Shown: one piece after another, positions 3,311 to 64,000 of the stretch
Layout: every line of letters begins with the position of its first letter
Numbering within the stretch: the first letter of the stretch is position 1
NCBI GenBank assembly: GCA_964019135.1
Contig: OZ025255.1
Location: 42,376,811-42,440,810, forward strand
Source: Arenicola marina
Taxonomy: Eukaryota > Annelida > Polychaeta > Arenicolidae
DNA: 64,000 bases
Direction of reading: 5' to 3'
Program-made: the position numbers and the translations under genes
Notes under the pieces: generated by a model
What the model saw: only the letters and a program-made list of their open reading frames with translations
What the model was told of the DNA's origin: nothing
The model's database searches: none

Positions 3311-3726
3311 CATTGCCCTGCCCTAACATGTGGCATTGCCCTGCCCCAATATGTGGCCTTGCCCTGCCCCAACATGCCGTAATAATGGGCCATTGCCCGG
3401 CCCCAACATGCCGTAATAACGGGCCATTGCCCGGCCCCAACATGTGGCATTGCCCTGCCCCAATATGTGGCCTAGCCCTGCCCCAACATGCCGTAATAAT
3501 GGGCCATTGCCCGGTCCCAACATGCCGTAATAATGGGCCATTGCCCGGCCCCAACATGTGGCATTGCCCTGCCCCAACATGCCGTAATAATGGGCCATTG
3601 CCCGGCCCCAACATGCCGTAATAATGGGCCATTGCCCGGCCCCAACATGTGGCATTGCCCTGCCCCAATATGTGGCCTTGCCCTGCCCCAACATGCCGTA
3701 ATAATGGGCCATCGCCCGGCCCCAAT
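3311..3726. repeat. Derived compound repeat at the edge of the 23-bp array
   Basis: The 23-bp unit changes here into longer compound units. These alternate a 23-bp-like segment (CCTGCCCCAATATGTGGCC) with a new segment containing CATGCCGTAATAATGGGCC followed by attgcccggccc. The new part carries a short inverted repeat, GGGCC-attgccc-GGCCC, absent from the parent array. This looks like a second generation of repeat grown from the array end. Confidence 0.9.
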
Positions 3727-29473: not shown

Positions 29474-31455
29474 ATTATTTCCGTCACATACCGTATTACC
29501 GCTACATATCGCAGTATTACCGTCACATATCGTAGTATTACCGCTACATATCGCAGTATTACCGCTACATATCGTAGTATTACCGCCACATATCGCAGTA
29601 TTACCGTCACACATCGTAGTATTACCGCTACATATCGTAGTATTACCGCTACATATCGCAGTATTACCGCTACATATCGTAGTATTACCGTCACACATCG
29701 TAGTATTACCGTCACATATCGCAGTATTACCGCTACATATCGTAGTATTACCGTCACACATCGCAGTATTACCGTCACACATCGTAATATTACCGTCACA
29801 CATCGCAGTATTACCGTCACATATCGCAGTACTACCGTCACACATCGTAGTATTACCGTCACACATCGTAGTATTACCGTCACATATCGCAGTACTACCG
29901 TCACACATCGTAGTATTACCGCTACATATCGTAGTATTACCGCTACATATCGTAGTATTACCGTCACACATCGTAGTATTACCGTCACACATCGTAGTAT
30001 TACCGTCACATATCGCAGTACTACCGTCACACATCGTAGTATTACCGCTACATATCGTAGTATTACCGTCACACATCGTAGTATTACCGCTACATATCGT
30101 AGTATTACCGTCACATATCGTAGTATTACCGTCACACATCGTAGTATTACCGCTACACATCGTAGTATTACCGCTACAGATCGCAGTATTACCGCTACAG
30201 ATCGTAGTATTACCGCTACATATCGTAGTATTACCGTCACATATCGTAGTATTACCGCTACATATCGCAGTATTACCGTCACATATCGTAGTATTACCGT
30301 CACACATCGTAGTATTACCGCTACACATCGTAGTATTACCGCTACAGATCGCAGTATTACCGCTACAGATCGTAGTATTACCGCTACATATCGTAGTATT
30401 ACCGTCACATATCGTAGTATTACCGCTACATATCGCAGTATTACCGCTACATATCGTAGTATTACCGCCACATATCGTAGTATTACCGTCACACATCGTA
30501 GTATTACCGTCACACATCGCAGTACTACCGCCACATATCGTAGTATTACCGTCACATATCGTAGTATTACCGTCACACATCGTAGTATTACCGTCACATA
30601 TCGCAGTATTACCGCCACATATCGCAGTATTACCGTCACATATCCTACTAATACCGTGACACATCTTAATATTACCGTCACATATCGCGTATTACCGTCA
30701 CATATCGCGTATTACCGTAACATATCGTAGTATTACCGTCACACATCGTAGTATTAGCGCTACATATCGTAGTATTACCGTCACACATCGCAGTATTACC
30801 GTCACATATCGCAGTATTACCGCCACATATCGTAGTATTACCGTCACATATCGCAGTATTAACGTCACATATCGTAGTATTACCGTCACATATCGCAGTA
30901 TTACCGCCACATATCGCAGTATTACCGTCACATATCCTACTAATACCGTGACACATCTTAATATTACCGTCACATATCGCGTATTACCGTCACATATCGC
31001 GTATTACCGTAACATATCGTAGTATTACTGTCACATATCCTAGTGTTACCGCCGCATATCGTAGTATTATCGTCACATATTGTAGTATTACCGTCACATA
31101 TCTTACTATTACCGTCACATATCTTACTACTACCGTGACGCATCTTAATATTACCGTCACATATCGTATTATTACCGTCACATATCGTAGTATTACCGTC
31201 ACATATCGTAGTATTACTGTCACGTATCGTAGTATTACCGTGACACATCTTAATATTACCGTCACACATCGTAGTATTACCGTAACATGTCGTAGTATTA
31301 CCGTCACATATCGTAGTATTACCGTCACATATCGTAGTATTACCGTCACATATCGTAGTATTACCGTAACATATCTTACTATTACCGTCACATATCGTAG
31401 TATTACCGTAACATATCTTACTATTACCGTCACATATCGGAGTATTACCGTCACC
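29474..31455. repeat. 21-bp minisatellite array
   Basis: Roughly 90 copies of a 21-bp unit, CGTCACATATCGTAGTATTA plus C. The main alternations are GTC/GCT, ACA/ATA and GTA/GCA. Internal duplications are visible, for example an eight-unit (168 bp) block near 30150 and 30318 and a 292-bp block ending near 30700 and 30995. Because 21 is a multiple of three, 400-codon open frames exist on both strands (ITVTYRS, DGNTTIC); they are not genes. Confidence 0.96.
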
Positions 31456-31795
31456 TATCGTAGTATTACGGTATTACCGTGACCTATCGTAGTATTACGG
31501 TATTACCGTGACCTATCGTAGTATTACGGTATTACCGTCACCTATCGTAGTATTACGGTATTACCGTGACCTATCGTAGTATTACGGTATTACCGTGACC
31601 TATCGTAGTATTACGGTATTACCGTGACCTATCGTAGTATTACGGTATTATCGTGACCTATCGTAGTATTACGGTATTATCGTGACCTATCGTAGTATTA
31701 CGGTATTACCGTCACCTATCGTAGTATTACGGTATTACCGTCACCTATCGTAGTATTACGGTATTATCGTGACCTATCGTAGTATTATCGTCATA
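31456..31795. repeat. 29-bp derivative of the 21-bp array
   Basis: The unit has gained 8 bp (tattacgg) to give a 29-bp period containing CGTAGTATTACGGTATTACC. This creates the near-palindrome ACGGTA-t-TACCGT. About 11 to 12 copies are highly uniform, which suggests recent expansion at the array edge. Confidence 0.92.
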
Positions 31796-41576: not shown

Positions 41577-44500
41577 TCACATGACTACTCTAGGGCCAGG
41601 TAGCCGGATGTCGGCCAGTGCCGCCTGCGCCATCAGAGCGTTAGAGAACTCCGGGTACGTCAAGTACCCGTCCTGGTTCTTGTCATCCTCCAACAAAATC
41701 TTGTCGACGGTATCTGAAACCAAACCAACACAAGAAAAGTGATAAGAGTGTTAAACTACACGGTCTTTTAATATGAAATTCTACTTGAGGAATAGTGGAA
41801 TGGAATGGACTGAATTATCGAATGTTAAGGGCCACAGGGCAAACGAAAATGTGAGAGTCGTTGATGCGATTTGAACCCAGAACTGCCGGCTTGAAGCGCC
41901 GGCGGTTCGCTTCACTGACCTAAGGACCCCAGGTGAACTAGATAAGACTTTCTCATATGTATGCAGACACTGGCAATGCCCAATGGTGCCCAGTGGTGCC
42001 CCTGGTGCCAATGGTGCCACTGATCCCAATGGTGCCACTGATCCCAATGGTGCCACTGATCCCAATGGTGCCACTGTTCCCAATGGTGCCACTGATCCCA
42101 ATGCTGCCACTGTTCCTAATGGTGCAATTGATCACAATGCTGCCACCGATTCCAATGGTGCCCAGTGGTGTCACTGATTCCACTGGTGCCACTGATCCCA
42201 ATGGTGCCAGTGATCCCAATGGTGCCATTGATCACAATGCTGCCACCGATTCCAATGGTGCCCAGTGGTGTCACTGATCCCACTGGTGCCACTGATCCCA
42301 ATGGTGCCACTGATCTCAATGGTGCCACTGATTCTAATGGTGCCACTGATTCCAATAGTGCCACTGATTCCACTGGTGCCACTGATTCCAATGGTGCCAC
42401 TGATCCCAATGGTGCCACTGATTCCACTGGTGCCACTGATTCCAATGGTGCCACTGATCCCAATGGTGCCACTGATTCCAATGGTGCCACTGATTCCAAT
42501 GGTGCCGCTGATTCCAATGGTGCCACTGATCCCAATGGTGCCACTGATTCTAATGGTGCCACTGATTCCAATAGTGCCACTGATTCCAATGGTGCCACTG
42601 ATCCCAATGGTGCCACTGATTCCAATGGTGCCACTGATTCCAATGGTGCCACTGATTCTAATGGTGCCACTGATTCCAATAGTGCCACTGATTCCAATGG
42701 TGCCACTGATCCCAATGGTGCCGCTGATTAGAATGGTGCCACTGGTGCCACTGATCAGAATGGTGCCACTGGTGCCACTGATCCCACTGGTGCCACTGAT
42801 CCCACTGGTGCCACTGATCCCACTGGTGCCACTGGTGCCAATGATCCCACTGGTGCCACTGATCCCGCTGGTGCCACTGATCCCACTGGTTGCCACTCAC
42901 CGACGAGCTTCCCTTGCAGGCGAGATGCCCTGACCTTCTTTGCCGACGCCGGTAGACTCTCGTTCTCTGTAATGGCGGCAAACTGCTGAGTCATTCCGTG
43001 TTGGATGGCGTGATACAGCTCCAGACCGTCCAATCGGTTGTCCTGATCCAAGTCATGTGACCTGTGACCGCGTGTGTAAGTGATGAAGGTGCGTAATTCC
43101 CATCTATAGGGGTCTGGAATTTCTCGGGAGGGGATGGGGGGTCCAATGTTCACTGTTTATTTGGCATAATGTTTGATATGCATTGTCCATTTTTCAACGA
43201 TTTCCAAGTCGGCTTTTTGAGAATCAACTGTGTTGGTGTCAATTTGTGACGATGCCAATGTCGGGCGTCGATTTTTCCAAAGCGTCGCCTGTCGCCGATT
43301 ACCCCTTCCAGACCCCTATCTATATGTGACTGTCATTTCACTTGACGGCGAATACATAAAACCGAGAAAAATACAGAATTAGTAATTATTTGATATTGTA
43401 TCCTTGGATATAAATCTGTCGCGATTGTCTTGTTCGAGATGTTTGTTTACAGACTCATTGCCGATTTCAGGCAATGAGTCATTCTTCATGTCACATTAAA
43501 TTAAAGTATCTAGCTAGAATGTATATCTAAAAAAAAATCGACAATTTTTAAGCATTACATTTTACGGATTTAATAGTAAGGCAATGTACAAACGTGAAAA
43601 AGTGGAAGCTGATTTCAATGAGAGACGCCGTGTTGGGGTCGAAGTGAAGGTAATCATTACTGTGTTCCTGGATGTGGCTGCAACAAGGGACGAAACGTAC
43701 TCATCATTAATAGACACACATGCTGCAACGAGGGACAAAACGTACTCATCATTAATAGAAGCACATGCTGCAACAAGGGACGAAACGTACTCATTAATAG
43801 ACACACATGCTGCAACAAGAGACGAAACGTACTCATTAATAGACACACAGACAGCAACATGGGACAAATCGTACTCATCATTAATAGACACACAGACAGC
43901 AACATGGGACGAAACGTACTCATCATTCATGGACACACAGACGGCAACAAGGCACGAAACGTACTCATCATTCATAGACATACAGACGGCAACAAGGGAC
44001 GAAACGTACTCATTAATAGACACACAGACAGCAACATGGGACGAAACGTACTCATCATTAATAGACACACAGACAGCAACAAGGGACGAAACCTACTCAT
44101 CATTCATAGACACACAGGCTGCAACAAGGGACGAAACGTACTCATCATTCATAGACACACACGCTGCAACAAGGGATGAAACGTACTCATTATTCATGGA
44201 CACACAGACGGCAACAAGGGACGAAACGTACTCATCATTAATAGACACACAGACAGCAACAAGGGACGAAACGTACTTATCATTCATGGACACACAGACG
44301 GCAACAAGGGACGAAACGTACTCATCATTCATGGAGACACAGACGGCAACAAGGGACGAAACGTACTCATCATTCATGGACACACAGACGGCAACAAGGG
44401 ATGAAACGTACTCATCATTAATAGACACACAGACAGCAACAAGGCACGAAACGTACTCATTAATAGACACACAGACAGCAACATGGGACGAAACGTACTC

Positions 44501-45643
44501 ATCATTAATAGACACACAGACAGCAACAAGGGACGAAACCTACTCATCATTCATAGACACACAGGCTGCAACAAGGGACGAAACGTACTCATCATTCATA
44601 GACACACACGCTGCAACAAGGGATGAAACGTACTCATCATTCATGGACACACAGACGGCAACAAGGGACGAAACGTACTCATCATTAATAGACACACAGA
44701 CAGCAACAAGGGACGAAACGTACTTATCATTCATGGACACACAGACGGCAACAAGGGACGAAACGTACTCATCATTCATGGAGACACAGACGGCAACAAG
44801 GGACGAAACGTACTCATCATTCATGGACACACAGACGGCAACAAGGGATGAAACGTACTCATCATTAATAGACACACAGACAGCAACAAGGGACGAAACG
44901 TACTCATCATTCATGGACACACAGACGGCAACAAGGGACGAAACGTACTCATCATTCATGGACACACAGACGGAAACAAGGGACGAAACGTACTCATCAT
45001 TCATGGACACACAGACGGCAACAAGGGATGAAACGTACTCATCATTCATGGACACACAGACGGCAACAAGGGATGAAACGTACTCATCATTCATGGAGAC
45101 ACAGACAGCAACAAGGGACGAAACGTACTCATCATTAATAGACACACAGACAGCAACATGGGACGAAACGTACTCATCATTAATAGACACACAGACGGCA
45201 ACAAGGGACGAAACGTACTCATCATTCATGGAGACACAGGCAGCAACAAGGGACGAAACGTACTCATCATTCATAGACACACAGACGGCAACAAGGGACG
45301 AAACGTACTCATCATTAATAGACACACAGACGGCAACAAGGGACGAAACGTACTCATCATTAATAGACACACAGACAGCAACATGGGACGAAACGTACTT
45401 ATCATTCATGGACACCCACGCTGCCTGTCGGATACTGACTCCATTGCAAGGCTAGTTCCAGATCTAACATACCTCAATATTCCTGTCGGATACTTACTCT
45501 TTATCCTGGATCAGTTTTCCCGATCGTATGATGTTTTCTACCTCGGGATCTTCCTCGTTCACCAGGACGATATGTCCCCCGGCCTCAGGCAATCCACTCA
45601 TTACCATGACAACGATAATCACACCCCATGCTACCTCTACCAT
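41577..45643 (-). CDS. MCFD2-like secreted EF-hand protein, paralogue C, complete
   Basis: Minus-strand exons are 45498-45643 (146 nt), 43594-43677 (84), 42901-43061 (161) and 41577-41713 (137), which join to 175 aa. The hydrophobic start [15 protein letters not shown] is a likely signal peptide. HIQEHS and FHFF precede EF-hand loop 1 [12 protein letters not shown] (about 80-91); loop 2 is [12 protein letters not shown] (about 141-152). The donor of exon 2 is gtttgt, weak, but it preserves the 84-nt size of the paralogues. Introns 1 and 3 are almost wholly minisatellite, and those arrays abut the splice acceptor of exon 2 and the donor of exon 3. As with the other copies, involvement in ER cargo export is a family-based guess. 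Confidence 0.9.
41868..41935 (-). mobile_element. tRNA-like relic
   Basis: The minus strand starts GGGGTCCTTAGGTCAGTGAA and has an anticodon-like arm GCCGGC-gcttcaa-GCCGGC and a T-arm-like GGGTTCAAATC. The acceptor ends do not pair, so it is a tRNA-derived relic or SINE head rather than a working tRNA. Confidence 0.5.
41960..42898. repeat. 18-bp minisatellite filling intron 3 of paralogue C
   Basis: About 50 copies of ATGGTGCCACTGATCCCA with T/C, A/T and C/A variants. At its right edge it runs into the donor of exon 3: on the minus strand GTGAGTGGCAACC continues directly into unit sequence. The 18-bp period gives GATDPN-type open frames that are not genes. Confidence 0.95.
43678..45423. repeat. 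45-bp minisatellite filling intron 1 of paralogue C
   Basis: About 39 units contain ACGAAACGTACTCATCATTC and acagacggcaacaaggg; a few units are 42 bp. A block near 44100 recurs 447 bp later. Its left end supplies the last intron bases (minus strand CCCTTGTTGCAG) of the acceptor at 43678. The 623-codon plus-strand frame (43584-45455) is an artefact of the 45-bp period and overlaps exon 2 of the gene on the other strand. Confidence 0.95.
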
Positions 45644-46841: not shown

Positions 46842-49800
46842 TTAAGGCTGCGATACGAATAATTCATTCTTGGTGATTGGTGAGACATTATCATCATTGT
46901 CAGTATCGCATGGCTGTCCCCTTGCGGAATGTAAGCTATCCCTTTCACCCGCCTCCTTGGGTGATACATCTATGCTCAATATAGCATTCTCGTCTTCATA
47001 GCCATTGCGACCGAAGTAGTAGGCCATGAGGTAGAGGATCAATGCCGTGACCTTGAAGCCGGAAGCGAGTCCGTGGAAGCGCCAGCGCATGTCGGTGGGG
47101 TTGTACCAGAGACACGCCCCCTGGGCCGCCTCGCACGTCGATTGGTACACCAGGCACGTCGAGTCGATCACAAGGCCGTACAGCACGGGGGCCGGAAAGG
47201 CTGAAAACACAAAAGTAACCGAGCTGTCAAAAGGGTGAAAATCGGAAAAAGTAACCGAACTGTCAAAAAGGGTGAAAATAGAAAAAGTTACCGAACTGCC
47301 AAAAGGGTGAAATAGAAAAAGTAACCAAAACGTATTACAGAATCACCGACGGATCAACATTCGTCAACTAATGAATCTTAATGTAACCACGCCGAGCAAT
47401 TGAGGATGTTACAAGTATCAAGGGAAATACGTGCTAAATATTTCCCGGTAAAATATTTTGCCTGCATAGTGTAATTAACTAAGACTAGTATTAACTAATA
47501 TATTATTCCCAGCTGTGTTGAAAGCAGGATACCTGCCCACGCATAGCTAATTTCAATGAGTTTGCATTGTATAAAAAAAACCTGCTGGCTAGAGAGTCCC
47601 TACAGGTGAGCACCTACCAGCGAAGTTGACGACACCAGTGGCCAGAGCCAGAGAGAGAGCCCGGTCATTCCGGTCCCCACACCTGGCGGCAAGGAAACAT
47701 ACCATCGTGATACAACATCGGTGTATACAAATAACTCATTATGCAACATTGATATAAACAAATAATTCATTTCTCAACAGTGATATATACAAATAATTCA
47801 TTATACAACATTGGTATGAACAAAAAATGCATAATTCATCATTGATATAAAAAAATTATAATTCATTCTTCAGCGTTGATACATAATATAGAACATTGCT
47901 ATATACAAATTTTTAAATTGACGCGTAACATTCGCGGCGTGCTACCCGTTACATTGAACTAATCACCATAAACCAATTACAGCGAGAACGGGGATTGGAT
48001 AATCTGCTGACTTTGTTTTATTTATCTCAGTTAGACGCAAATCTGTTCCACAACACTAGTGAGGACTTAGTCCAGTCTCATAATAACGCAATCATAAACT
48101 TCATGACAGAAATAAACACTTGGATGGCTGACAATATCGACTTCCGCTCGAATATAAAACTCTCCAATCAGCGGACTCGTTTCACGGATTGTCTTCCGCG
48201 GTAACCATGGCGACCTACCTGAGGAGGATGGCCATCATGGGGACAGGGAACATGCTGGTGATGAGGGAGGTGACCCCCAGGGTGACAAGGTAGGACGCCA
48301 GCAGCGGGCACCCCGTGCTGCAGCGGCCCACATCCACCCTCCCCGCCCCCTCAGGCCCCACGCAGCGGCAGTCAGCGAACACCTGCAAGGACAACGGCTA
48401 ATTATCGAAAACATATATTGTGAACAATTTTCAGTATGTATCTATGGCGTTTTGGTCAATGTAACTATGGTAAGTTTTGCACCTTTATATTCAGTCAATA
48501 ATGAAATTAAAAGTGTTCATTATCAGGTTGGTACAGCTATTAAATAGCCTCAAATGGTCAGGAGACCAGTGTAGCGGTCGCACGTATATTGTTTGACAAA
48601 TCCTATCTCTAATATATTACTTTTCGGGGAGAAACCGTAAAGTGCGGAAATGACATTATAGAACAGCTGCACACATGACACTGGATTAAAGACGGTGTAA
48701 AGTTGTCCTTGTGTGCCTCGTACTAACCCCCTCGCTCAAGACACTGGTACAGCCGGCGGCGCAGGGAGAGAAATAGTTCTGCCCGTCCTCCCCACACACG
48801 GGGGTGAAGCGGGAGGGGTCACAGCCGCAGGGGTCAGCGCAGCGGACACTCTCGTTGGCGCTAGAGGGCGACACCATACGTTAATCAGGTGGTTGGATTA
48901 TATTACAAGGACATATGGACATCAGTTTTAACAGTTACAAACGTTAAAATGAAGTCCAAGTTATATCGATAAAATGTACAAATTAGTGTGATGCTCTAAG
49001 GTAAAAGAATTACCCTCCCAAAAAAAGTAACCAAACACCCATTAAATCCCGACTTCGCCATTAGTATGTCTAAACCTTCTTAGCACGATAGTGACTAGAA
49101 TATAAATTTTTATTTCGTACTTATCAGGCCGTGGAGCCAATGCACCAGTAACGCAAAAAGTGGGCAATACAATCCGCGGGGCTAATATGGCTTACCCTCC
49201 ATGTATGCAGCTTAATTATAGCTATTTCGGACTAGACCTTTAAATGCATATCAGGTAGAATCAACTGCGTCTCGATTGTTAAAAATAAACAATAGGAAAT
49301 AATAAACAAAAAATGTTGGACTGAGTGCGGAAGACACGCGTCGAACACTAGATGGCCCCGGTCGTGGGACTGTGGTTACCTTGGCAACGTTCCCAGTATG
49401 CTGTCCCCCCACCGGACATCCGGACAGGGCAGGAACATCATGATGAGGAACCCTGAGACAGCCACAACCTGGATCCCGACGATGTACTGGAGCATCCGGC
49501 GGACGGAGAGCCGCCATCTGGATAGCACTCGGCCACTGATGATAGGCCCCAGGGACCAGCACAACGCGCTGATACAGCCTGTGGGGGAAACCAACGTATC
49601 AGTCAACAATAATGGTCATAGGACCAGCACAGCGCGCTGATACAGCCTGTGGGGGTAACGAACGTATCAGTCAACAATACTGGTTATAGGACCAGCACAG
49701 CGCGCTGATACAGCCTGTGGGGGTAACCAACGTATCAGTCAACAATACTGGTTATAGGACCAGCACAGCGCGCTGATACAGCCTGTGGGGGTAACGAACG

Positions 49801-52800
49801 TATCAGTCAACAATACTGGTTATAGGACCAGCACAGCGCGCTGATACAGCCTGTGGGGGTAACCAACGTATCAGTCAACAATACTGGTTATAGGACCAGC
49901 ACAGCGCGCTGATACAGCCTGTGGGGGTAACCAACGTATCAGTCAACAATACTGGTTATAGGCCCCAAGGAACCAGCACAGCGCGCTGATACAGCCTGTG
50001 GGGGTAACCAACGTATCAGTCAACAATACTGGTTATAGGACCAGCACAGCGCGCTGATACAGCCTGTGGGGGTAACCAACGTATCAGTCAACAATACTGG
50101 TTATAGGACCAGCACAGCGCGCTGATACAGCCTGTGGGGGTAACCAACGTATCAGTCAACAATACTGGTTATAGGCCCCAAGGAACCAGCACAGCGCGAT
50201 GATACAGCCTGTGGGGGTAACCAACGTATCAGTCAACAATAATGGTTATAGGCCCAAGAAACCAGCACAGCGCGCTGATACAGCCTGTGGGGGTAACCAA
50301 CGTATCAGTCAACAATAATGGTTATAGGCCCAAGGGACCAGCACAGCGCGCTGATACAGCCTGTGGGGGTAACCAACGTATCAGTCAACAATAATGGTTA
50401 TAGGACCAGTACAGCGCTCTGATACAGCCTGTGGGGGCAACCAACGTATCAGTCAACAATAATGGTTATAGGACCAGCACAGCGCGCTGATACAGCCTGT
50501 GGGGGTAACCAATGTATCAGTCAACAATAATGGTTATAGGACCAGTATAGCGCGCTGATACAGCCTGTGGGGGTAACCAACGTATCAGTCAACAATAATG
50601 GTTATAGGCCCCAAGGAACCAGCACAGCGCGCTGATACAGCCTGTGGGGGTAATCAACGTATCAGTCAACAATAATGGTTATAGGACCAGCACAGCGCGC
50701 TGATACAGCCTGTGGGGGTAACCAACGTATCAGTCAACAATAATGGTTATAGGACCAGTATAGCGCGCTGATACAGCCTGTGGGGGTAACCAACGTATCA
50801 GTCAACAATAATGGTTATAGGCCCCAAGGAACCAGCACAGCGCGCTGATACAGCCTATGGGGGTAACCAACGTATCAGTCAACAATAATGGTTATAGGAC
50901 CAGTACAGCGCGCTGATACAGCCTGTGGGGGTAACCAACGTATCAGTCAGCAATAATGGTTATAGGACCAGCACAGCGCGCTGATACAGCCTGTGGGGGT
51001 AACCAACGTATCAGTCAACAATAATGGTTATAGGACCATCACAGCGCTCTGATACAGCCTGTGTGGGTAAAAAATGTATCAGTCAACAATAATGGTTATA
51101 GGACCAGTACAGCGCGCTGATACAGCCTGTGGGGGTAACCAACGTATCAGTCAACAATAATGGTTATAGGACCAGTACAGCGCGCTGATACAGCCTGTGT
51201 GGGTAACCAATGTATCAGTCAACAATAATGGTTATAGGACCAGTACAGCGCGCTGATACAGCCTGTGGGGGTAACCAACGTATCAGTCAACAATAATGGT
51301 TATAGGACCAGCACAGCGCGCTGATACAGCCTGTGTGGGTAACCAATGTATCAGTCAACAATAATGGTTATAGGACCAGTACAGCGCGCTGATACAGCCT
51401 GTGTGGGTAACCAATGTATCAGTCAACAATAATGGTTATAGGACCAGTACAGCGCGCTGATACAGCCTGTGGGGGTAACCAACGTATCAGTCAACAATAA
51501 TGGTTATAGGACCAGCACAGCGCGCTGATACAGCCTGTGGGGGTAACCAACGTATCAGTCAACAATAATGGTTATAGGCCCCAAGGAACCAGCACAGCGC
51601 GCTGATACAGCCTGTGGGGGTAACCAACGTATCAGTCAACAATAATGGTTATAGGACCAGCACAGCGCGCTGATACAGCCTTTGGGGGTAACCAACGTAT
51701 CAGTCAACAATAATGGTTATAGGACCATCACAGCGCGCTGATACAGCCTGTGGGGGTAACCAACGTATCAGTCAACAATAATGGTTATAGGACCAGTACA
51801 GCGCGCTGATACAGCCTGTGGGGGCAACCAACGTATCAGTCAACAATAATGGTTATAGGCCCCAAGGAACCAGCACAGCGCGCTGATACAGCCTGTGGGG
51901 GTAACCAACGTATCAGTCAACAATAATGGTTATAGGACCAGCACAGCGCGCTGATACAGCCTGTGGGGGTAACCAACGTATCAGTCAACAATAATGGTTA
52001 TAGGCCCCAAGGAACCAGCACAGCGCGCTGATACAGCCTGTGGGGGTAACCAACGTATCAGTCAACAATAATGGTTATAGGACCAGCACAGCGCGCTGAT
52101 ACAGCCTTTGGGGGTAACCAACGTATCAGTCAACAATAATGGTTATAGGACCATCACAGCGCGCTGATACAGCCTGTGGGGGTAACCAACGTATCAGTCA
52201 ACAATAATGGTTATAGGACCAGTACAGCGCGCTGATACAGCCTGTGGGGGCAACCAACGTATCAGTCAACAATAATACCTCACCGAAAATGCTGATGGTT
52301 ATATGATTTGATCCGATTACACGCATTCTCACAATTGGCTATCCATGGTTGAGAACATGACCTCGCTCACGGCTGCGGAGTGTTTATTATCCCTACTAAA
52401 ATGTACGCATCCATTCTTGACGCTGGGTAGAACGTTTTAAAAAAGAATGTTAAACAGAAAAATGCATTTTCTAAATTGAGAATCAATATAAAAGTAAATA
52501 TGCAGATAAGCACACTGGTGTTGTTTACCTGTGTATATGTTGGCCATGGAAGGGCTTTGTCCGAAGTGTGTCTCCAGGTACTTGGGAAGAAAGGTGACGT
52601 ATCCGAGCATGGTGATGTTACAGCAGGCTCCCAGGATGAGGAGGGAGAAGACAGGCTTCCGGAACAGCCGCACAAGGGCGCGGGGCATGTCTAAACACCG
52701 AAAACATAGCTGTTACAGGATGAGGAGGGAGAAGACAGGCTTCCGGAACAGCCGCACAAGGGCGCGGGGCATGTCTAAACACCGAAAACTTAGTTGTTAC

Positions 52801-55800
52801 AGGATGACGAGGGAGACGACAGGCTTCTGGAACAGCCGAAAAAGGGCGCGGGGCATGCCTAAACACCGAAAACATAACTGTTACAGTATGAGGACGGAGA
52901 ACACAGGAACGTTTTCGGTCTTTTGATGTATCGTTTTACCTTAAAAAAATATATAAATAATATCCAAGCCAAAGGTACGACAATTTAGTAATATTGCTTG
53001 TAAACGACACCAGTAAACCTCTAAGCCGTGCACTTAACAAAAGGATCAATGTTTTAAATTTCTCTTATAATCAAAACATAAATAAAACACCACTTCAATA
53101 AACAATAAAGTGGTGCGCACAGTATAATATGCAATACATTAATTCACTAAACAATATAACGCACAATACATGAATGCCATATGCTACAGTAAAGATGGCC
53201 TCATTGGGTCATACCTTTCAAATTAGCGGCGAAGTCATCCTCAGAGGTTGAGTCAGGAATGTCCTCGTCCTCTGTCACCCCCGGACCAGCCTCCACTGCC
53301 AGGAAGGACCCATTCGCACATATAACGCGACCGTTTATCACACTGGAGTCACTGGTTAAGTATCCATCTTTGGCACATTGAATGTCGTTATTTGAATGTC
53401 CATTTCTGGCATCCAAAATGGCGGATAGAGCCACGGAACCGTTCACTTCCGTCAGTTCCTTCCACACCATGGGTGCCCCAGGGAGCTCCGCGTCATCCTC
53501 TTTCTCAGTCAACAGACCCTTTTTCTTTCCATCCTTGTTCTTGCTGGCGGGCCCCTTTGCTACGTGTTTATTGACCTTTGACCTGACCTGTATCTGGGCC
53601 GGGAAGCAGAGGAGGGGCAGCGACCAGACTAGGGTGACGAGGCCACAGATGAGGTAGCCGATCCACCAGGCGCCGACCCATCGCGGGTCCTTGGGGCCGA
53701 ACCCGGGGTCTGCAAACAAAGAAAGACAGTTGCCTTGATGACGTCACGTCCGATATCCGAATCCCTCTGTTGCTGGCTGAAAAGTCCTATCATGCAAGTC
53801 GTTTTTCCATGATAGGGAGAACTTGACTATTGTTCCAGCATCGCTCACGTATGACTCACGCGTACCATTTACTGTAATATTTCGTGGCCATTACCATGAA
53901 AGATGGATCCATTGTCTACTCGGTGTAGTCCGCCAAAGGTATCGTCGCATCAAAGGCGTTTTTACTTCAGGATGCAATCATCATAATGCACTCAAATGGG
54001 TAATGTACTCCTTCATGAGAACAAATCACCACCTGCACCCAGCACGTCATGGTGCAGACTGTAGAATGGGTGATACCTTGGTGTGTTAAAATAGAAATTT
54101 AACAAATAATAACCAATCAATGTCAATCCAATGGTATCCGCCATTGTTTTTACCCAATTAACGCTACTGTTGTGACATCCCATCCCACATTGAGCGCCCC
54201 CTGCCGGCAGAGAGTGACTGGACTGACCTGACAGGTCCACGTGGATGGAGGAGGTCCAGGCACCGAGCAGGAAGCCCAGCACAGGGGCCAGGGACCGGGA
54301 ACCGAACATAAATCCTGAAGCAAGGAACAACACACGGTCAACAACCGCACTGTTTACATTATGACGTCACGTAGCCTCTAGTCTAGCTCAGTTGGTATGT
54401 AATCAGGCTGAGCTGCAGAGCAACGGGTCGTGGGTTCGCGCCCCTGGTACCTGCATCACCCGGGGGGTTCATGTACAAGGACGGATTTGCGTTTTAGGAA
54501 ACCCTAGATGTGGATAAAGATAATTACTGCAAATGGACGTGGAACAGTGATGTTAACGAACCTTAATGGCTTGATAAACAAGATATATATAGCAACATCA
54601 TAAAATAATGAAACATAAATAACGACTTGTGACTAGACATGGGCTCACGAAAACATCGAACGACATCGGACAACAACATATGGAACGGATATGTTATATA
54701 AATTTATTGTACGCCTTTCGCACCGCTTCAAACATGATAGAACTACATATGGTACCCTTATCTTGTGTGAGGATACTGTTTGTTATTTTTTCCACTCGAG
54801 CCAGATACTGATTTGAAACTGATTGAAGGCAATGTATGCTTCCACTCAGGCAGCACCAGTTATCCCGGTCGCCATGGATTGCAATTACATTCTGATGTCT
54901 CACTTATTATTCAAAATTAAGTGAGTTTTTGGACAAGGCAGCTTAACTTGTTCATAAAGACAAGAAAAATAACACAAACATAGCCCATCCCAATGGGATA
55001 ACCAATAAACTGAGAAAGTAGGGTGTTGTGCGTTAAATTAAGTCGTTCTTACATCACCCCCCCCCCCCCCCCCCAGTTAACAGCAGTCTCTAAACACCCT
55101 ACCGACAGGGGGCGCTGTTACAGCGAATGAACTCAAAAGATTGGTAAAGATTCTTCACGAAAGAAATGGAAGGAAACAGCTGGCTGAGCTATATACCAAC
55201 AGGGACAGGTTGCCACCAAGCTCATTTCATTGTTTCCGGAGGTTCCATGGCCAAGTTTAGCCTTCATGTTCATAACAGTGGCCTGCTGATTGACCAACAT
55301 TTGTATTTCTCTAGAACTTGTACGTTATTTTAATGCAGACAACATACTGGTATTTGGTAAATGTACAGGCTAGTGGAATGGTTGTTTATTGCTCAAGCGA
55401 GGAAAAGAAAGAGCTCAACGTGTGGAAAATTCGAGCCTTCGAGCATTAACGTAACAAGACTTCGTCCAATCGCGTTCTCAGAAACACCTTGTCTATTTCC
55501 CAGACGCTGTGAGTCTTGTTGAACGGGGAGGGCCCGACCGCCGGAAATAGACAAGACGTAACAGAAGGCTTGTGAGCTGTTATTAGGCTACACCGTGAAC
55601 GGGGAGGGGGGGGGGTTGGTGGTTGTTGAAGATATGTGCATAACTTTGTGCGCGTTCGAACCACTGTATATCGTTCTTCATTGCCAACAGAATACCGCTG
55701 TTAGAAAAACAACATATTGCAACATTGAATGATTTAATTTGATGGACATGACAACACCATGTAGTCTCTCTAATGCCCATGGTACTCCTAGCGAAGTTTC

Positions 55801-58800
55801 CGAAGCTTTGTGACCGAAATTTGTGTCCGAAGTTTCAACGTGTTTGAATTTGGGCCACAAACTGTCTACATCATTATTATTACAAGCAATCAGAAAGCGA
55901 GATGATTTCTTGAGGGGCATGGGTGGGGTCAGCGATGGTAACGTTAGAGTCTTGCCACCAAATAACGGGGTTACGTGCTACGAGTTTCGGAAACAGGGAT
56001 TAGATGCATCCTGTATCCTGGCCATAATCAGCGGTTCTGCCGTGTTGGCGGGCATCATCCAGTAGAGCTCGCGTAAAACACGTCTAAAATCAACAGCAAA
56101 TGCTGTACTTTTTGGCAGGCTAAAAGCATTTTTTTAACTGATTGAAAACCGTCTGCAACCCGGTGGTATGCCATTTATAAAATACCCATTATTCCTTTCG
56201 ACTCACTTCACAAATGTTGCATGTAGAACTAATTCAACGAACAACTACAAAGATAAAGTATTTTCTGTATTTGTATTGCAACATAGCAAGTTATTTGTAT
56301 TGCAGTATGGCAAGGTATTCTTGTACTTCAACATCGCACTATAGCCTACAGACTATTTTTGTATTCTCAAACTGGACAGTGTCTCCAAACTAAGTTCGGT
56401 GTCTGGCGGTTGGCAAAGCGAGTGTCTGGGCGAAAGACAGAAACACGGGGCGAAAAAAGAGCAGATTCGGTTCAACCGGCCGAATGCCCGAATGGCAGGC
56501 CGGATGAGGGATGTTATCTATGGGCTGATCCAGGGGGTCCGCCCCCCCCCCCCCTTTTGAGGAACAATGCCGTTTTCCAATGCAAAACCCGGGCACGCCT
56601 ATCTGAGGCGGCGTGGACCCCCCCCCCCCTCCTTTTTGCGGAAGAACGCTATCAGAGGCGGGGTGGACCCCCCCCCCCCCTACCATCCCCCGGTCGTCAA
56701 AAATTGGTGGATCTCCCGGTCGCGTTCAGTTTGTTTGTTCAGAGCCCCCCCCCCCCCGGTCTCAGGTTTGGACCCCCCCTTTTTCAAATTTCTGGATACC
56801 CCCTGTTATCGACCTGAACAGAAGGGGAGTTTCGATGCAAATAAAAACAGTGTGTTTCAAGTGCTGAGTTCTTTGAATTCAGACCATGCTTATGAATATT
56901 TAAACCTGCTCAATCTCACTTAAAGTGTTAATTTCGAAGCTGCGCACGTCGACTTGGCTCAGAGGACTTTGTCCTGAAGTGCAGGTTAAGCACGATCTGT
57001 CAATGGAACAAGGGTGAATGTTGGATTTTGAAAGAGGGAGGCTCACTCTGGGTGGGGTGAACTCTCCGAAAATATCCTGATGGGGAAGCGGAAGGAAGGG
57101 GGCGAGGGGAGGGGCGCACCACAAGCCTTAAAATGAGACTCGTTAGAAACGTTCATGAAAAATCTTATTATTTTTACTTTTACTTCGATTACCCTATCCA
57201 TATCAAGAGCGCCAGATAAGCCACAAACTGGTAGCTATTTATTATAACAAGTTTATATTTACGTATAGTTTGTAAAGCTAATGTAATCGAAAAATGAGAA
57301 AGCAATATATCAGGGTCAGGTTATATTTTATGCTGGGAGATTAAGAAAAACAGGGGTGTGGGTACTAAAAACGAAATCAAGAAGACAAGAAGACAAGCTT
57401 TACGTCTTTATTACAATCTGCAGCCAAGCAAATATGCTAATCGCCCGGTACAAACATTCAAGGACGTTTAAACTCCTTAACTTGTAATAATTTACACCCT
57501 TTCGCAACAGTCGGATCTACTGGATGGGGTTTGATGGGTGGCGAAATATCACAGTTTGCCCTTGAAGTTTGTCATCATTTTCGCACACAACAACAGCAAT
57601 AATAATACAAAACCAAGACATGTTGTAGGTTCTCCGACAGTCAACTTCATGGCGCTTGTCGGGGTCCGGATTGCTTCGATTTCTTTAAGAAGGACGTTCT
57701 AGGATGCATGTTTGCACGCAATAAGTTAGGGTTGATAGTTCAGTTCGTGCGTTGAACAGCCACATCCAGACCCTGCAAGCGCCCTCTTGATGTCACTGTT
57801 GCCGACGGCTTGTGGTACGTTGGAGCAGACGACAGTTGGTTATTGGCGGGAAGGCACGGGATTGGTGGCGGGAAAATGAGCGTCACGTGAGAGAGCGGGT
57901 CACTGATCAGCGCTTTGGATGCCCGAGACAGCGGGGGAGGGCGAGGCGGCGCGTGGGTGCGTGGAGGCCCCATGACGGACGCCATTCCGGACGTGCCTGA
58001 AGCGGGACGGTCTCCGGATGCACCGTCCACGTCCGCCCGGACGTTCGTCCAATCAGCGAGTCCGAGTCCGCAACCCGTGGGTGCTGCCACAGCTTCGCGC
58101 GCTCCCGATTCCGTAATTGTGAAGTCGGCCCCTCCGGTTCCGGTTCCGGTTCGGCCCCCCTGGCGGCCGTTCTCGGTGGGCGCGGCGCTGACCGCCGCTA
58201 CAGGGAGCGCGCGGTCGTAGTAATCCTTCATCCGCCTCTTGACGAGACTCGTCTCGAAGTGACCCCGAAGGAAGTCGGCCTCGCAGGCCGGATGGACCCC
58301 CCACGTGGACCCCGTGCGCATGCGCCGTCCGTCGCGCAGGAAGCACCCGTGAGCGGACAACGTGTGTCGGACGGTGTTCTTCCAGCACTTGGCGTTGTCG
58401 GAGCCGAAGAAGGCCCAGTGGTCAATCATGTACTGGTAGATGTCGCCCAGGACCATGCGGTGCTCCGGGTGGCTCATGATGGCCGAGCCGATCATCGCCA
58501 GATACGACAGCCGCGGCTTCTCCGGCTGCGGTGACGTCATCGGGGGCACCGGCCCCGGAGCCGGTGCTGGTGCGACCGGCTGGAACTGCGCCACCTGTTT
58601 CGCGTTGACACCTGGTCGGACACGACCCCTGGCGGTGGAGGCATGCCGGGATCGCTTGGACGGGGGTGGGTTGTCACCGCCGGCTGCCGACTGCGCCGCT
58701 GCTACCGCGGCGCCCACCAGGGGGCGAAACGCCAGGGGGCGACCGGGCTTGGGAGCTAAGGTCACGGGACGCACGGCGCTGCCACTTCCCGCCGAGTGGG

Positions 58801-61800
58801 GGCGCCTCCTACCGCGACCCGCCTTGGATGCGATGGACAACGGAACTGGATCTAGCGGCCGGAAAGTCATCGTGCGGGCCACTGCCGATCCGGGTCTCTT
58901 CGCCGAACACGCCGTGGCGCCACCTAGCGGCATTAATGGCAACCCGGAGCTGGGGACAACCCTGGTCGGATTCGGCACCCGGACCGAGAAATCCGGAAGG
59001 AGCATTTCTATCTCGGAGAGTGCTCCACCTTGCAGAAGGGAGGTTATCGGATCCCGATACGAATAAGTCGGCTTCGTCTGGCTGCTCAGCGAGGCTGGTA
59101 GCGTATCCGGAATAGATCCGAGGTAAGATATATTCGGGATCCAGGACGCTTCGCAAGCCACTGATGACGCCCAGGTGGACGCAGGCAGCGAGCCGTAACA
59201 CTGCTGCAAGCCGGAGATCCCGGTGCGCGACACGGGTTGCTCCGGTAACCCGCCTGGTCTGATGACGTCATGTCCGGACCACGACGGGAGGTGCCGGAAG
59301 CATCCCTCGCTGGCGATCCAAATACCGCTGTCCGCGCTGGACTCCAATCCCGGCCTTTCCTCCCCGCCACGGGAATCCAGACTCCTGCGCGACGTAGACA
59401 TCAGATCCAGCGTCCCGGGCAGAAGGGATTCGTCCCTGACGTCATTATGGTGGTCCGTGACGTCATTATGGTGGCCCGCGATCGGCGAATGTCTCCCGCC
59501 GTAGTGAGCCGGATACTCGCCAGAGGGCAGGGCTACGTCCGGTGGCGCCGCCAGGAACAAGTCCCAGTCACTCCGGCCTTGAGATCTGCACGCGGCCTGC
59601 TCTGGATCCAACTCCAGGTTTAGTCGTCTGGAAAATGCACCCTGATGAAGCTCTGACGTCACCAGTCTCTTTGCAGTGATGTCACTGTTTGTGGTTCGAG
59701 TCTCTAACAAATGGTGCTCTGCTGAGTTGTTCGACGGATCCATGGCATCCAGTGATCTTCAGTCCTCACAGACGATTTATTTGCGGAGAAAATAATAAAT
59801 TCCCCTTTTACACACCATCTGTCATCGTTCCCGCAATTCTAAATTGAGTAATTTCTCAGACGTCACCAGCAAATGATTCCCTGACATATGTCTTCAGCAT
59901 TACGCCCAGGAAGTCAGACAACCTCTCCCGCCAGCAATGCGTTTCCTCTCGCAACTCGGCGTTTTCGGACGAAGTGGAACGCCTGTCGCTCTACCAATGA
60001 GCCTTATACACAGCCAGGCCCGCCAACCCAAGGCGGGCTGCTATGGCACCTTCCAAGCCTGAGCTCCCGGCCCAGACAGCAGGGCATTCACACGTACACC
60101 TGACCCGATCAGCCAGTCGGGTTCTGTCAAGGAGGGGCCACCGTCAGGGGTCGGCTCTTGCCCGGCTGCTGCAGGCTGGCAACCCGTACTAGGCTCGGTC
60201 ACTCACTCCGTCACCCCCCTCGCGCCGGCCGGTCGAGTCGGACGCTGGCGGTGGTGAGCGACTCACACAGTCCAGCGCGTGTGTACCTCCAGCGCTCTCT
60301 CCTTCAGCCCCCAACATGGCGAGTTCAAAAACGTCGTGAGTTCAGAGCTGACCGCGGTTGGGAAGGGGGGGGGGGAGGGGGAGTGGTAGGGGTTGTATGG
60401 TCCGAATAATTGGAAATGCGGTGGCAAGGGTAGGGAAGTGGGGGAGGGGGAGGGATGCATTGGAGACGAATGAAATGTGTTCAGTATTTACAGGATCGAC
60501 CTGACGAAAGCTTTAAGAAACATTACCTTTAACATTTGTACAATTCGTTTATGCTTGTAAACTTTGAAGGCAATGGGAACATTGACCCGTATTGTGTAAG
60601 GGGATTTTGTATGCCCATGAGCCGTGGCAACCACCAAACCCCCTTGGGTTCGATTTAATTATTTTGTTCGATAATAATGGTGTAATTTAAGAGGTGACTA
60701 AATAATTCAATATAGACCCTACATGTACAGTTATGTTATGGACATGATAATTGGTGTTTTGTGCGCTTTTAAGATTTAATTAACCTGCTTAAGACTATGA
60801 CAATGAAACATTCCTCACATTGGGGGACTTCAATTCAAGTATACGCCATCCGCAAGCATACACACTGTGAGAATCGCCCACAGATGAGGGGAGAGGGATA
60901 TCTTTTCCGATCTCCGCGATTGGCATCCAGGAATTGTTGGAGATTCGCGTTTAGCTGTTGGCAATTTTTGGGGATCATTTTTGGTATAATTCCTGGTTCA
61001 ACGCGAAGACCCTTTCCCTATTTATTGCGATCCGCTATAGCAGTCTGTAAATTCCTCGATATCTGCCTTTAGGGTGTTTTTTCGTGCCCAGTCTTGAGCA
61101 GTACTCATCTTGGAGATTCGATATTACTCTCCCAAATTCTTCGGGATTCGCGATTTAGACTGCCCCCCCCCCCCCCCCCCCGCCTCTCAGTTGGCAAGCA
61201 GGCTGAGCGGCAGATCAATAGGTCGTAGGTTCGAACCATGGCACATCCATATGGGGCAAACTTCATCCAACCCTATTTCCTTGTCGTGGGAGGTTTCTTT
61301 GTCCAATCGAACCTTCAATAGCACAAACGCGGCCTAAAAATGCAACGATCACAGCGGTTGCCATAACCCCCCCCCCTCCTCCCCCGTTTCCCATCGCGAG
61401 CTTTGTTGTGAAATATGTCAGGTCAGGGGTCAGCCAGTCCGGAGCCATGTGCAGGTGTTCCCCAATGGTACACGGGCAGCCCTAACTATGGTGGTCAACC
61501 GTTGGCTTCTCGGGACTCCAGTCCTTATTCTAGCTTCATATTACAGGGTCGACAATGATTGCACTAAAGGCTTCAGTGAGTGATACGTGAGCGAACAATG
61601 GAACAATGGTTCCCGCAAATATGGCCGAACACCTGTCAAAGTATTCGGTGAAATTACGACTTAGGCATAGACAGCGGTGGGGGACAGGTGGAGGATCGTC
61701 ACCATCTATTATACAGTAAGGGTATGAAGACGATACCAGCCATCACCCTCGTCACCATCTATTATACAGTAAGGGTATGAAGACGATACCCGCCATCACC

Positions 61801-64000
61801 CTCGTCACCATCTATTATACAGTAAGGGTATGAAGACGATACCCGCCATCACCCTCGTCACCATCTATTATACAGTAAGGGTATGAAGACGATACCCGCC
61901 ATCACCCTCGTCACCATCTATTATACAGTAAGGGTATGAAGACGATACCCGCCATCACCCTCGTCACCATCTATTATACAGTAAGGGTATGAAGACGATA
62001 CCCGCCATCACCCTCGTCACCATCTATTATACAGTAAGGGTATGAAGACGATACCCGCCATCACCCTCGTCACCATCTATTATACAGTAAGGGTATGAAG
62101 ACGATACCCGCCATCACCCTCGTCACCATCTATTATACAGTAAGGGTATGAAGACGATACCCGCCATCACCCTCGTCACCATCTAGTATACAGTAATTGT
62201 ATGAAGACAAAGTCGGAACTAATCAATGAGTTTTCGCAAGACACAATTAGCAAGTTGGAAGTTTTATTTGCGATGACGTCATGAGGTCGTGAGGAGCGTA
62301 AGGCGTCCCCAGAACAGTCAGTGTACAACAGTCATCGGGTGTTTGATCTAAAACCAGACCATAAACACACATTCTTGACAACTGGGAACCAAGTCGCCAT
62401 TTGAGCAAATTAACGCACCGAAATTATTTCCGCGCACTATTTACCTAGAATGATAAAGTGATGTAATTCAACCGAATGTGTTGAATATCATTATCCGCTT
62501 AAAACCACACTATTTATTCTATAAGTAATAACACTACGGACACATTCCGGGAGTGATCCAGGATTTGCGAAACAGAGGGTGGGGGAGGGGGGGGGCAACT
62601 ATCATTTCTGAGCTCAATGGAGACATCTTCAAATATTTTGCCAAAATATGACTCATTTCATTTTAAAACATGTGGTAGGGCCGAATCCGTGCAGTTAAAC
62701 TCAACCTTTCCTTAAAGTTGCATATCGAGCTCTTTCCCGCCAAAACTAAAGAGGTCAAAATGCAAATAATAATCAGTCCTAGAATCATTCAAGATTTCTT
62801 TTGTCTATACTCCACCCATGCCAGACTGCCAAATAGTGTCTCTTAGCTATGCCAGTGATATCAATTTACCACAAGTTTTCATTTTAGTGGTAAACGTCAT
62901 CAGTTTGTGTGCTTTGCGATGCTTTGGTATAAGTAACAGTGCCGCGACAAAGTTCTGTGGTGTCCCGGGATTGACACCTTTGCCACACCACAGCCGAAAC
63001 GGCGATGTTTATCAGGTTTCTGAATTTATAGAATGAAACAATCGAGTTTTCTGCAAAATTGGATATAAATCTCGCCTTGACTTAGTTTTGGCGGGAAAGA
63101 ACTCGATATGCAACTTTAATATATAAATTGAAACGCTTAGTAATGTGGTATTAATGTCCCTACTTCAAAACTGAAATAACATTCAAAATAAATACTAAAA
63201 CTAACCGACAAACAAATCTAGTGTTTTATGCCGCTTTTGTGCAGATGAAACCTCAATTGGGCCAAGAAACCTGCCGAAGCAATGAAATGGGTGCCGGGAC
63301 CAGGGTGCCAACTCACGACGATGATACATGTCGTAAGGTTAATTTCTGAAAAACATATAATCTCCAAAATAAATTCAAAGAAATTATTCATAAAAACTGC
63401 GGGATAAAACAGTTGCCTGTCAAGGGTATAATATCAAGGCGGAGATCGCCAGTGAGACTTACCAAAGTACTTGGGGGCGCTGTCCGGTGAGGTGTCGTCG
63501 ATGTAGGTCAGGCTGAGGGTGGCCTGTGGGGACCGCATCATGCCCTGGAAGAGCGTGGCACACAGGAAGATCGCCAGAGCACCCGGGTTAAACCGGCCGT
63601 CGCGACGCCGCGAACCGCACGTCGAGTTCCCAAACTCCTGTCGAGCTGGGTCGCACAGCTGGTAGGCATCTCTACCTCCGCTATGGCTCTCCCAATGTGT
63701 CGAGTTGGTGATGACCGGGTTGTTATCATTATTAGTATTATTATTCCACGTCGTATCGTCGTCGTGGCTGATAGAATCGCTGCCGTAGATGAAGTAAGGG
63801 ATGACGCATATCCAGATTGCGCAAGCCGCCAGCACATTGGTGACCGCCAACAGCCGCGGTTTGTTAGAGTGCCGGCAAAAATGGCTGAAGACCAGGACGC
63901 TCAGCATGAAGCCGATGTTGTCAGCGTTCTTAATGAAGCCGGATATGGAACTGGGCAAGCCATAAAGCCGCTCTATTTGAGAAATGACGGCGGTGAAGTA
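46842..64000 (-). CDS. SLCO: Organic anion transporting polypeptide (SLCO/OATP family), 5' end outside window
   Basis: A 12-TM plasma-membrane transporter for organic anions. Minus-strand exons are 63463-64000 (continues off the edge), 54228-54314, 53215-53709, 52529-52690, 49380-49578, 48728-48860, 48219-48382, 47618-47682 and 46842-47200. All junctions are GT-AG and in phase, giving 733 aa so far. The superfamily signature DPRWVGAWWIGYL is at the start of the third visible exon. PVLGFLLGAW (TM region), KYLETHFG, a Cys-rich Kazal-type extracellular loop (CADPCGCD...VCGEDGQNY) and GDRNDRALSLALA are all in family order. The loop after the signature is long (about 115 aa), with Lys-rich then acidic sequence. 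Introns hold a nested forkhead gene and two exon-derived tandem arrays. Substrate cannot be told. Confidence 0.95.
47206..47335. repeat. About 36-bp tandem repeat, 3 copies, in SLCO intron
   Basis: Copies of GTAACCGAACTGTCAAAAGG then gtgaaaatagaaaaa lie immediately upstream (in transcript terms) of the acceptor of the last SLCO exon. Confidence 0.85.
47705..47890. repeat. Degenerate 31-bp AT-rich repeat in SLCO intron
   Basis: About five imperfect copies of the form CAACATTGATATAAACAAAT then aattcatta. Confidence 0.75.
49550..52275. repeat. 68/76-bp minisatellite made from a splice acceptor and exon start of the SLCO gene
   Basis: The array has about 38 units. On the minus strand each unit contains GTTGGTTACCCCCACAG (intron end) followed by GCTGTATCAGCGCGCTGTGC (exon start), then 'tataaccattattgttgactgatac'. 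The authentic exon at 49380-49578 begins with the same sequence. Units of 76 bp also keep TTCCTTGGGGCCTAT, matching exon bases 27-38; 68-bp units have lost 8 bp of this. Blocks recur at about 424 bp near the right end (the 'gcctttggggg' variant at 51681 and 52105). The array fills almost the whole intron 49579-52528. Confidence 0.95.
52633..52915. repeat. 84-bp tandem repeat made from the start of another SLCO exon
   Basis: The acceptor and first 58 nt of exon 52529-52690 are repeated at exact 84-bp spacing (starts at 52633, 52717, 52801 and 52885). On the minus strand each full unit has GGTGTTTAG then acATGCCCCGCGCC. The two extra acceptors are at 52774 and 52858. The copies diverge progressively away from the real exon. 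Confidence 0.93.
53835..53920. repeat. Dispersed repeat copy (pair with 41441-41530)
   Basis: GCTCACGTATGACTCACGCG, 'atttcgtgg' and 'gaaagatgga' occur in the same order as at 41441. It lies in the SLCO intron 53710-54227. Confidence 0.55.
54384..54475 (+). mobile_element. tRNA-derived SINE head, family 2, in SLCO intron
   Basis: TCTAGCTCAGTTGGTATG (A box) and GGGTTCGCGCCCC (B box) with 'caggctgagctgcagagcaacgggtcgtg' between them match the elements at 61183 and 26650. It is inserted in the long SLCO intron, antisense to the gene. Confidence 0.7.
55488..55555. other. 13-bp inverted repeat
   Basis: CTTGTCTATTTCC (55488-55500) and GGAAATAGACAAG (55543-55555) are exact reverse complements separated by 42 nt. 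It may be the end structure of a small element; no target-site duplication is obvious. Confidence 0.7.
56524..56806. mobile_element. G/C-run interspersed element, best-preserved copy
   Basis: Starts GATCCAGGGGGTCCGCCC and ends 'cccccctttttcaaatttctgg'. Between lie 'cttttgaggaac', 'ctatctgaggcggcgtgg', 'cccggtcg' and four C runs of 12-15. The same modules occur at 5984 and 46190. It lies in the long SLCO intron. Proline-rich open frames here are not genes. Confidence 0.7.
57407..57412 (-). terminator. Polyadenylation signal of the forkhead gene
   Basis: AATAAA on the minus strand lies 328 nt past the stop at 57740; it is a plausible 3' end for the nested single-exon transcript. Confidence 0.55.
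57740..59743 (-). CDS. foxQ2-like: Forkhead-box transcription factor, probably FoxQ2-like, intronless, nested in SLCO intron
   Basis: A single open frame of 667 codons starts at ATG 59743. A forkhead (winged-helix) domain lies at about residues 408-510, beginning EKPRLSYLAMIGSAIMSHPE, with LGDIYQYMIDHWAFF (FoxQ2-like 'DIYQ' segment), recognition helix WKNTVRHTLSAHGCF and wing region STWGVHPACEADFLRGHF. The helix keeps the base-contacting Asn and His but has Thr where nearly all Fox proteins have Asn after RH. An N-terminal DPITSLL (about 228-236) loosely resembles an eh1 repressor motif. The flanks are Pro/Ala/Ser-rich and GC-rich. An out-of-frame ATG overlaps the start context. Family assignment is by eye: forkhead is near certain, FoxQ2 is moderate, and a divergent lineage-specific Fox is the alternative. 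Confidence 0.9.
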   Translation of the reverse strand: MDPSNNSAEHHLLETRTTNSDITAKRLVTSELHQGAFSRRLNLELDPEQAACRSQGRSDWDLFLAAPPDVALPSGEYPAHYGGRHSPIAGHHNDVTDHHNDVRDESLLPGTLDLMSTSRRSLDSRGGEERPGLESSADSGIWIASEGCFRHLPSWSGHDVIRPGGLPEQPVSRTGISGLQQCYGSLPASTWASSVACEASWIPNISYLGSIPDTLPASLSSQTKPTYSYRDPITSLLQGGALSEIEMLLPDFSVRVPNPTRVVPSSGLPLMPLGGATACSAKRPGSAVARTMTFRPLDPVPLSIASKAGRGRRRPHSAGSGSAVRPVTLAPKPGRPLAFRPLVGAAVAAAQSAAGGDNPPPSKRSRHASTARGRVRPGVNAKQVAQFQPVAPAPAPGPVPPMTSPQPEKPRLSYLAMIGSAIMSHPEHRMVLGDIYQYMIDHWAFFGSDNAKCWKNTVRHTLSAHGCFLRDGRRMRTGSTWGVHPACEADFLRGHFETSLVKRRMKDYYDRALPVAAVSAAPTENGRQGGRTGTGTGGADFTITESGAREAVAAPTGCGLGLADWTNVRADVDGASGDRPASGTSGMASVMGPPRTHAPPRPPPLSRASKALISDPLSHVTLIFPPPIPCLPANNQLSSAPTYHKPSATVTSRGRLQGLDVAVQRTN
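59744..61696. other. SLCO intron upstream of the forkhead gene; candidate forkhead promoter region
   Basis: The first 600 bp upstream of the forkhead ATG are GC-rich with many CpG and probably include its promoter. No TATA box stands out. A tRNA-like A box (minus-strand GGCTCATTGGTAGAGCG, about 59985-60003) lacks a B box. No other gene is seen. Confidence 0.5.
61183..61330 (+). mobile_element. tRNA-derived SINE, family 2
   Basis: CTCTCAGTTGGCAAGCAGG and GGTCGTAGGTTCGAACC, then 'catccaaccctatttcc', match the reverse of 26650-26790. A C run of about 22 precedes the head. Confidence 0.72.
61697..62210. repeat. 53-bp minisatellite, about 9.7 copies, hairpin-forming
   Basis: Nearly identical units begin CGTCACCATCTATTATACAG and contain the inverted pair GGGTAT-gaagacg-ATACCC. 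Only the first and last copies diverge, which suggests recent amplification. It lies in the SLCO intron. Confidence 0.96.
62716..63115. mobile_element. 400-bp MITE with TTAA target-site duplication
   Basis: Terminal inverted repeats of about 35 bp begin AGTTGCATATCGAG and continue CTCTTTCCCGCCAAAACTAA, with one mismatch between ends. They are flanked directly by TTAA at 62712-62715 and 63116-63119. No transposase frame is present. TTAA duplication is typical of piggyBac-type elements, but these ends do not start with the usual CCC, so superfamily is uncertain. It is inserted in the long SLCO intron. Confidence 0.85.

Follow-up and report, generated by a model that had tools for sequence, protein, structure and literature searches.

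A tandem array of an exon's own 3' splice site in an intron of an OATP/SLCO gene of Arenicola marina

Gene Content of the Locus

The window analyzed in this study is a stretch of 64,000 nucleotides from the genome of Arenicola marina. Its minus strand carries, at 46842-54314, part of an OATP/SLCO transporter gene, as indicated by matches to the Pfam profile PF03137. Four segments scored above the curated cut-off and followed one another in profile order on the minus strand (Table 1), and a further match at 54366-54013 (profile positions 172-201, E 0.019) fell below it. Joining eight exons with AG/GT borders yielded 1664 nt with one stop only, the terminal one. Pfam also located a Kazal domain at 48880-48686 and returned no match for 48420-48170. 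Among the solved human-type SLCO proteins, OATP1C1 was the best match (E 2.4e-19) to a query made of parts of three exons joined. The exon whose acceptor border is repeated, referred to below as the authentic exon, has an open frame once joined with its neighbors.

Two further coding regions were observed on the minus strand, i.e., a multi-exon gene for GTP-dependent phosphoenolpyruvate carboxykinase (7605-9712) and a 672-codon open frame with a forkhead domain (57740-59758; PF00250, E 1.1e-20). Searches of the window against Rfam at gathering scores and for tRNAs gave no match and no tRNA. According to TRF, the window is rich in large minisatellites. Moreover, an EF-hand-like exon on the minus strand is followed by an 18-bp array (41989-42901) that begins at position +4 of the intron, counted from the exon's donor. 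Its units correspond to the intron sequence from that position onward, the GT itself not being repeated, and it may be compared with the ABCA7 donor VNTR discussed below. The exon concerned had no Pfam match at 0.01; we presume that it resembles MCFD2.

Table 1. Positions of the OATP/SLCO segments, the border arrays and examples of the large minisatellites in the window
Feature	Position	Strand	Details
PF03137 match	53743-53201	minus	profile positions 191-266
Preceding OATP exon	52529..52690	minus	Pfam match 52712-52437, profile 281-336, E 9.7e-15; donor GTAAAC
Authentic exon with repeated acceptor border	49380..49578	minus	PF03137 profile 336-390, E 7e-07
PF03137 match including last exon (47200-46842)	47342-46842	minus	profile 503-545
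Large tandem array, 38 decoys running into the authentic copy	49553..52276	minus	TRF; cut into copies; alignment
Upstream single-copy flank containing TATAACCATCAG; candidate intronic breakpoint for the seed duplication	52285..52310	minus	sequence, CATCAG count; breakpoint putative
Second border array	52632..52907	minus	84-bp unit = 26 nt intron end + 58 nt exon start; TRF 3.3 copies
Probable third, degenerate border array before last exon	47196..47326	minus	36-bp unit; TRF, sequence
Minisatellite	1-3376		23 bp; TRF
Minisatellite	14627-21549		28 bp, 246.7 copies; TRF
Minisatellite	29493-31469		21 bp; TRF
Minisatellite	43680-45415		45 bp; TRF
Minisatellite	61696-62208		53 bp, 99% matches; TRF

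An Intron Array of Repeated Acceptors

Most of the intron between the preceding and the authentic exon is filled by what TRF reports as one array (period 68, 38.9 copies, score 4380). Cutting it at a conserved anchor resulted in 39 copies, namely 38 decoys and the authentic acceptor as the 39th, the exon of which starts at 49578 directly after the decoys. The claim of the preliminary description that the intron holds about 38 copies of the host gene's own 3' splice site was therefore borne out, and an ordered array of such length is not explicable as a chance match. The tandem unit is likewise real, but its lengths, given earlier as 68/76 bp, are 68 bp (29 decoys), 76 bp (2) and 77 bp (7). In the alignment, each unit consists of 33 nt from the end of the intron, 29-38 nt from the start of the exon and a junction of 6 nt. 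The exon-like part spans 38 columns where the unit is 77 bp long and 29 where it is 68 bp long, 9 nt being absent from the shorter form, in agreement with the "up to 38 nt of exon start" described previously. In total, 22 distinct unit types were found among the decoys.

The AG before the exon-like part is present in 39/39 copies, but the intron end cited in the preliminary description, CCCCCACAG, is in its literal form absent from some of them: position -3 is C in 35 decoys, A in two and T in one, and position -6 is A in four. Similarly, the copies had been called identical or nearly so to the authentic acceptor; near-copies they are, but with one fixed difference in the intron part, at position -10, where the authentic base is T, against A in 35 decoys and G in three. 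This is the single fixed difference over the 33 intron positions, and one further fixed position, C to T, lies in the exon core. A yUnAy branch-point-like motif was found within -40 to -16 in all 39 copies, starting at -28 and -24 in the first and last ones. The longest pyrimidine run is 8 nt in the authentic copy vs. 5 nt in 34 decoys, 3 nt in three and 6 nt in one. Over -18 to -4, pyrimidines make up a fraction of 0.73 in the authentic copy and three decoys and of 0.60-0.67 in the other 35; as this fraction does not single out the authentic copy, it is a point against the reading that the authentic acceptor is the stronger one. The fixed difference at -10 may stem from one founder unit, and thus it need not reflect selection.

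Predicted RNA structure does not distinguish the authentic site either. Under three settings, the AG of 30-33 of the 38 decoys was at least as accessible as the authentic one, and structural masking was rejected, given that the authentic site does not stand out by the local accessibility of its AG, branch point or pyrimidine tract. Within the units (49553-52276, minus strand) the splice site is flanked by an inverted pair, CTGATAC/GTATCAG, which could pair within or between units; the folds predicted for it give the authentic site no preference.

Donor-like sequences were also sought. GTRAG does not occur in the array, and the GTs present agree with the donor pattern at no more than 3 of 7 positions, vs. 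4-6 for seven real donors. These observations bear on recursive splicing, in which the units would act as zero-length exons and the intron would be removed stepwise, an idea that the even spacing of the acceptors might support. In a recursive splice site, a donor comes immediately after the acceptor (AG then GT). In the array each AG is followed by GCTG (39/39 copies) and never by a donor GT. With GTRAG absent and no donor-like site in the array, recursive splicing was rejected, and the chance that it operates here is negligible. Donor context alone cannot exclude the decoys nearest to the exon, since they could share the authentic donor.

Formation of the Array

The preliminary description proposed that the repeat was seeded by a duplication spanning the exon border and then expanded. 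That it was built from this very border is supported by our analysis. None of the 12-mers in the unit was found anywhere else in the 64-kb window, the sole sequence searched, and an imported repeat is thus not supported. The unit ends match single-copy sequence on both sides of the array, which is flanked by TATAACCATCAG within the intron and by TATCATCAG within the exon. The motif shared by the two ends, TAT...CATCAG, was spotted by eye; the minus strand has CATCAG at 52297 and 49541 and nowhere else within 49300-52700. A tandem duplication between these short matches may have copied the exon border once, and the flanks suggest that 20 nt of the intronic part were later lost and, in most units, also 9 nt of the exonic part, giving the units of 68-77 bp.

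Regarding the subsequent growth, the array contains an exact 402-bp duplication (offset 426), inside which five unit types recur in the same order at units 1-5 and 7-11. In addition, neighboring units differ less from each other than they do after shuffling (84 vs. a mean of 96.1 differences, P 0.016). We read these features as signs of unequal exchange, by which the array would have been enlarged. The exact internal duplication could also be expected if the assembler had inflated or collapsed the copy number, and a published lancelet border array is indeed reported to have been mis-assembled in a draft genome (PMC3087553). An assembly artefact is nevertheless very unlikely: 22 unit types among 38 would be hard to make from few real copies, and the variants are ordered, with units ending in ACCAG, for example, grouped on the exon side.

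The same gene contains further arrays of this sort. In the second border array the exons of the two decoys would start at 52858 and 52774 and the authentic one at 52690; the decoys are identical to the authentic copy at 77/84 and 82/84 positions, and both run into an in-frame stop. The sequence TTTTCGGTG was found in the upstream flank of the large array as well as in all three copies of the 84-bp array, possibly by chance. The array next to the last exon is probably a repeat of the last acceptor together with 5 nt of exon, as suggested by a match of 16/19 nt across the border (shuffle P 0.0025); in its decoys, CAC replaces the authentic CAG. The fourth array (47713-47881) does not reach across an acceptor, as it stops 31 nt short of the exon at 47682. 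In a post hoc test on these four arrays of one gene, the number spanning an acceptor did not differ significantly from random placement (P 0.087 unconstrained; 0.055 for the three small arrays), and an array edge lay within 60 nt of an acceptor more often than under random placement (P 0.003; 0.03 for the three small arrays). The presence of two, probably three, border arrays in a single gene suggests that this genome makes such arrays readily.

Predicted Effect on Splicing

Translation in the host frame from each decoy runs into a stop after 6-18 residues (38/38), and only the 39th copy keeps an open frame through the whole of its exon. The earlier statement that correct use of the last copy matters holds, given that only this one of the 39 copies provides a working frame. 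The stop after the decoy peptide was also correctly predicted, but the peptide quoted, GCISALCWSYNHYC, is exact in only 8/38 decoys, the other 30 having variants. Transcripts spliced to a decoy would meet this early stop, after which decay of the mRNA is probable on general grounds.

Each decoy holds the parts of an acceptor, i.e., a branch-point-like motif, a short pyrimidine tract and an AG. It appears most likely that the cell still splices to the last copy, because no other copy has an uninterrupted pyrimidine run of 8 nt and because the exon behind it terminates in a real donor. Splicing would then tolerate the array because the authentic acceptor is the stronger one. Taken together, we consider the array to be probably a minisatellite of the kind known as mirages, locally seeded and unequally amplified, and most likely tolerated rather than functional.

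A different role would be that of a splicing rheostat, with the decoys taking a copy-number-dependent share of the transcripts into early-stop products, so that array length would tune OATP output. The conservation of AG and branch-point-like motif in 38/38 decoys and the stops in 38/38 are compatible with it, as is the reported finding that the length of a human intronic donor VNTR affects splicing and expression (PMC5954066). The decoys, however, are weaker in their pyrimidine run and lack their own donor, and the stops are expected anyway, the unit length not being a multiple of three. Furthermore, the lancelet mirages are reported to have left regular splicing undisturbed (PMC3087553). We thus regard this role as unlikely. 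We are slightly more doubtful about a specific form of it, a length-variable bank of dozens of complete 3' splice sites, set apart from the real one in the intron part by one pyrimidine at -10, through which a share of the OATP transcripts, dependent on copy number, would be lost to decay; if true, the minisatellite would be a heritable, perhaps somatically unstable dial of transporter expression. Another model, put forward for lancelet globins in the same report on mirages (PMC3087553), sees such arrays as a source of new exons and introns, with units recruited as exons and the remainder becoming intron. With donor-like sites missing from the array and frames closed in 38/38 decoys, it is a highly improbable explanation here.

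The locus represents a natural competition assay, in which 38 near-identical acceptors are set against one that shows, across the last 33 bases of the intron, just one fixed difference. RNA of such a locus would weigh one polypyrimidine position, donor distance and exon context in the choice of a 3' splice site, and would also tell harmless arrays from those tuning expression.

Relation to Known Systems

The preliminary description knew of no standard repeat class defined by splice-site amplification. Such a class has in fact been described: two reports define "mirages" as tandem duplications of exon-intron borders in lancelet genes (PMC3087553; PMC3902484). The cases mentioned there are Adh3 and the globins BflGb6 and BflGb9, with 3-6 or few units of about 150-160 bp in the globins (PMC3087553), to which the second report adds PGBD5, with 2-7 units, and cites troponin C as having similar repeats (PMC3902484). 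Introns of a lancelet VCBP gene have also been reported to contain complete or partial exons with splice sites (PMC2632668). The OATP array shares with the mirages its minisatellite-like copies that span a border (33 nt from the intron and 29-38 nt from the exon), the splice signals retained in many of them (AG in 39/39) and its position next to the authentic border. It differs from those described in these reports in its 38 decoys, its units of 68-77 bp, the gene concerned and the fixed difference at -10. By its anatomy, we would assign it to the mirages as a large example, not claimed as the largest. The new details are that all decoys keep the AG and a branch-point-like motif, yet have a purine at -10 (38/38), that each of them leads to an in-frame stop and that the array contains no good donor.

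A second relevant system is the VNTR in intron 18 of human ABCA7, which includes the splice donor and the length of which is reported to be linked to exon 19 skipping and lower expression (PMC5954066). Like the OATP array, it is an intronic repeat that adjoins an exon and includes the splice signal there, and its units can act as cryptic sites (PMC5954066). It is described as lying in the intron and repeats a donor (PMC5954066), whereas the array in the OATP gene repeats an acceptor.
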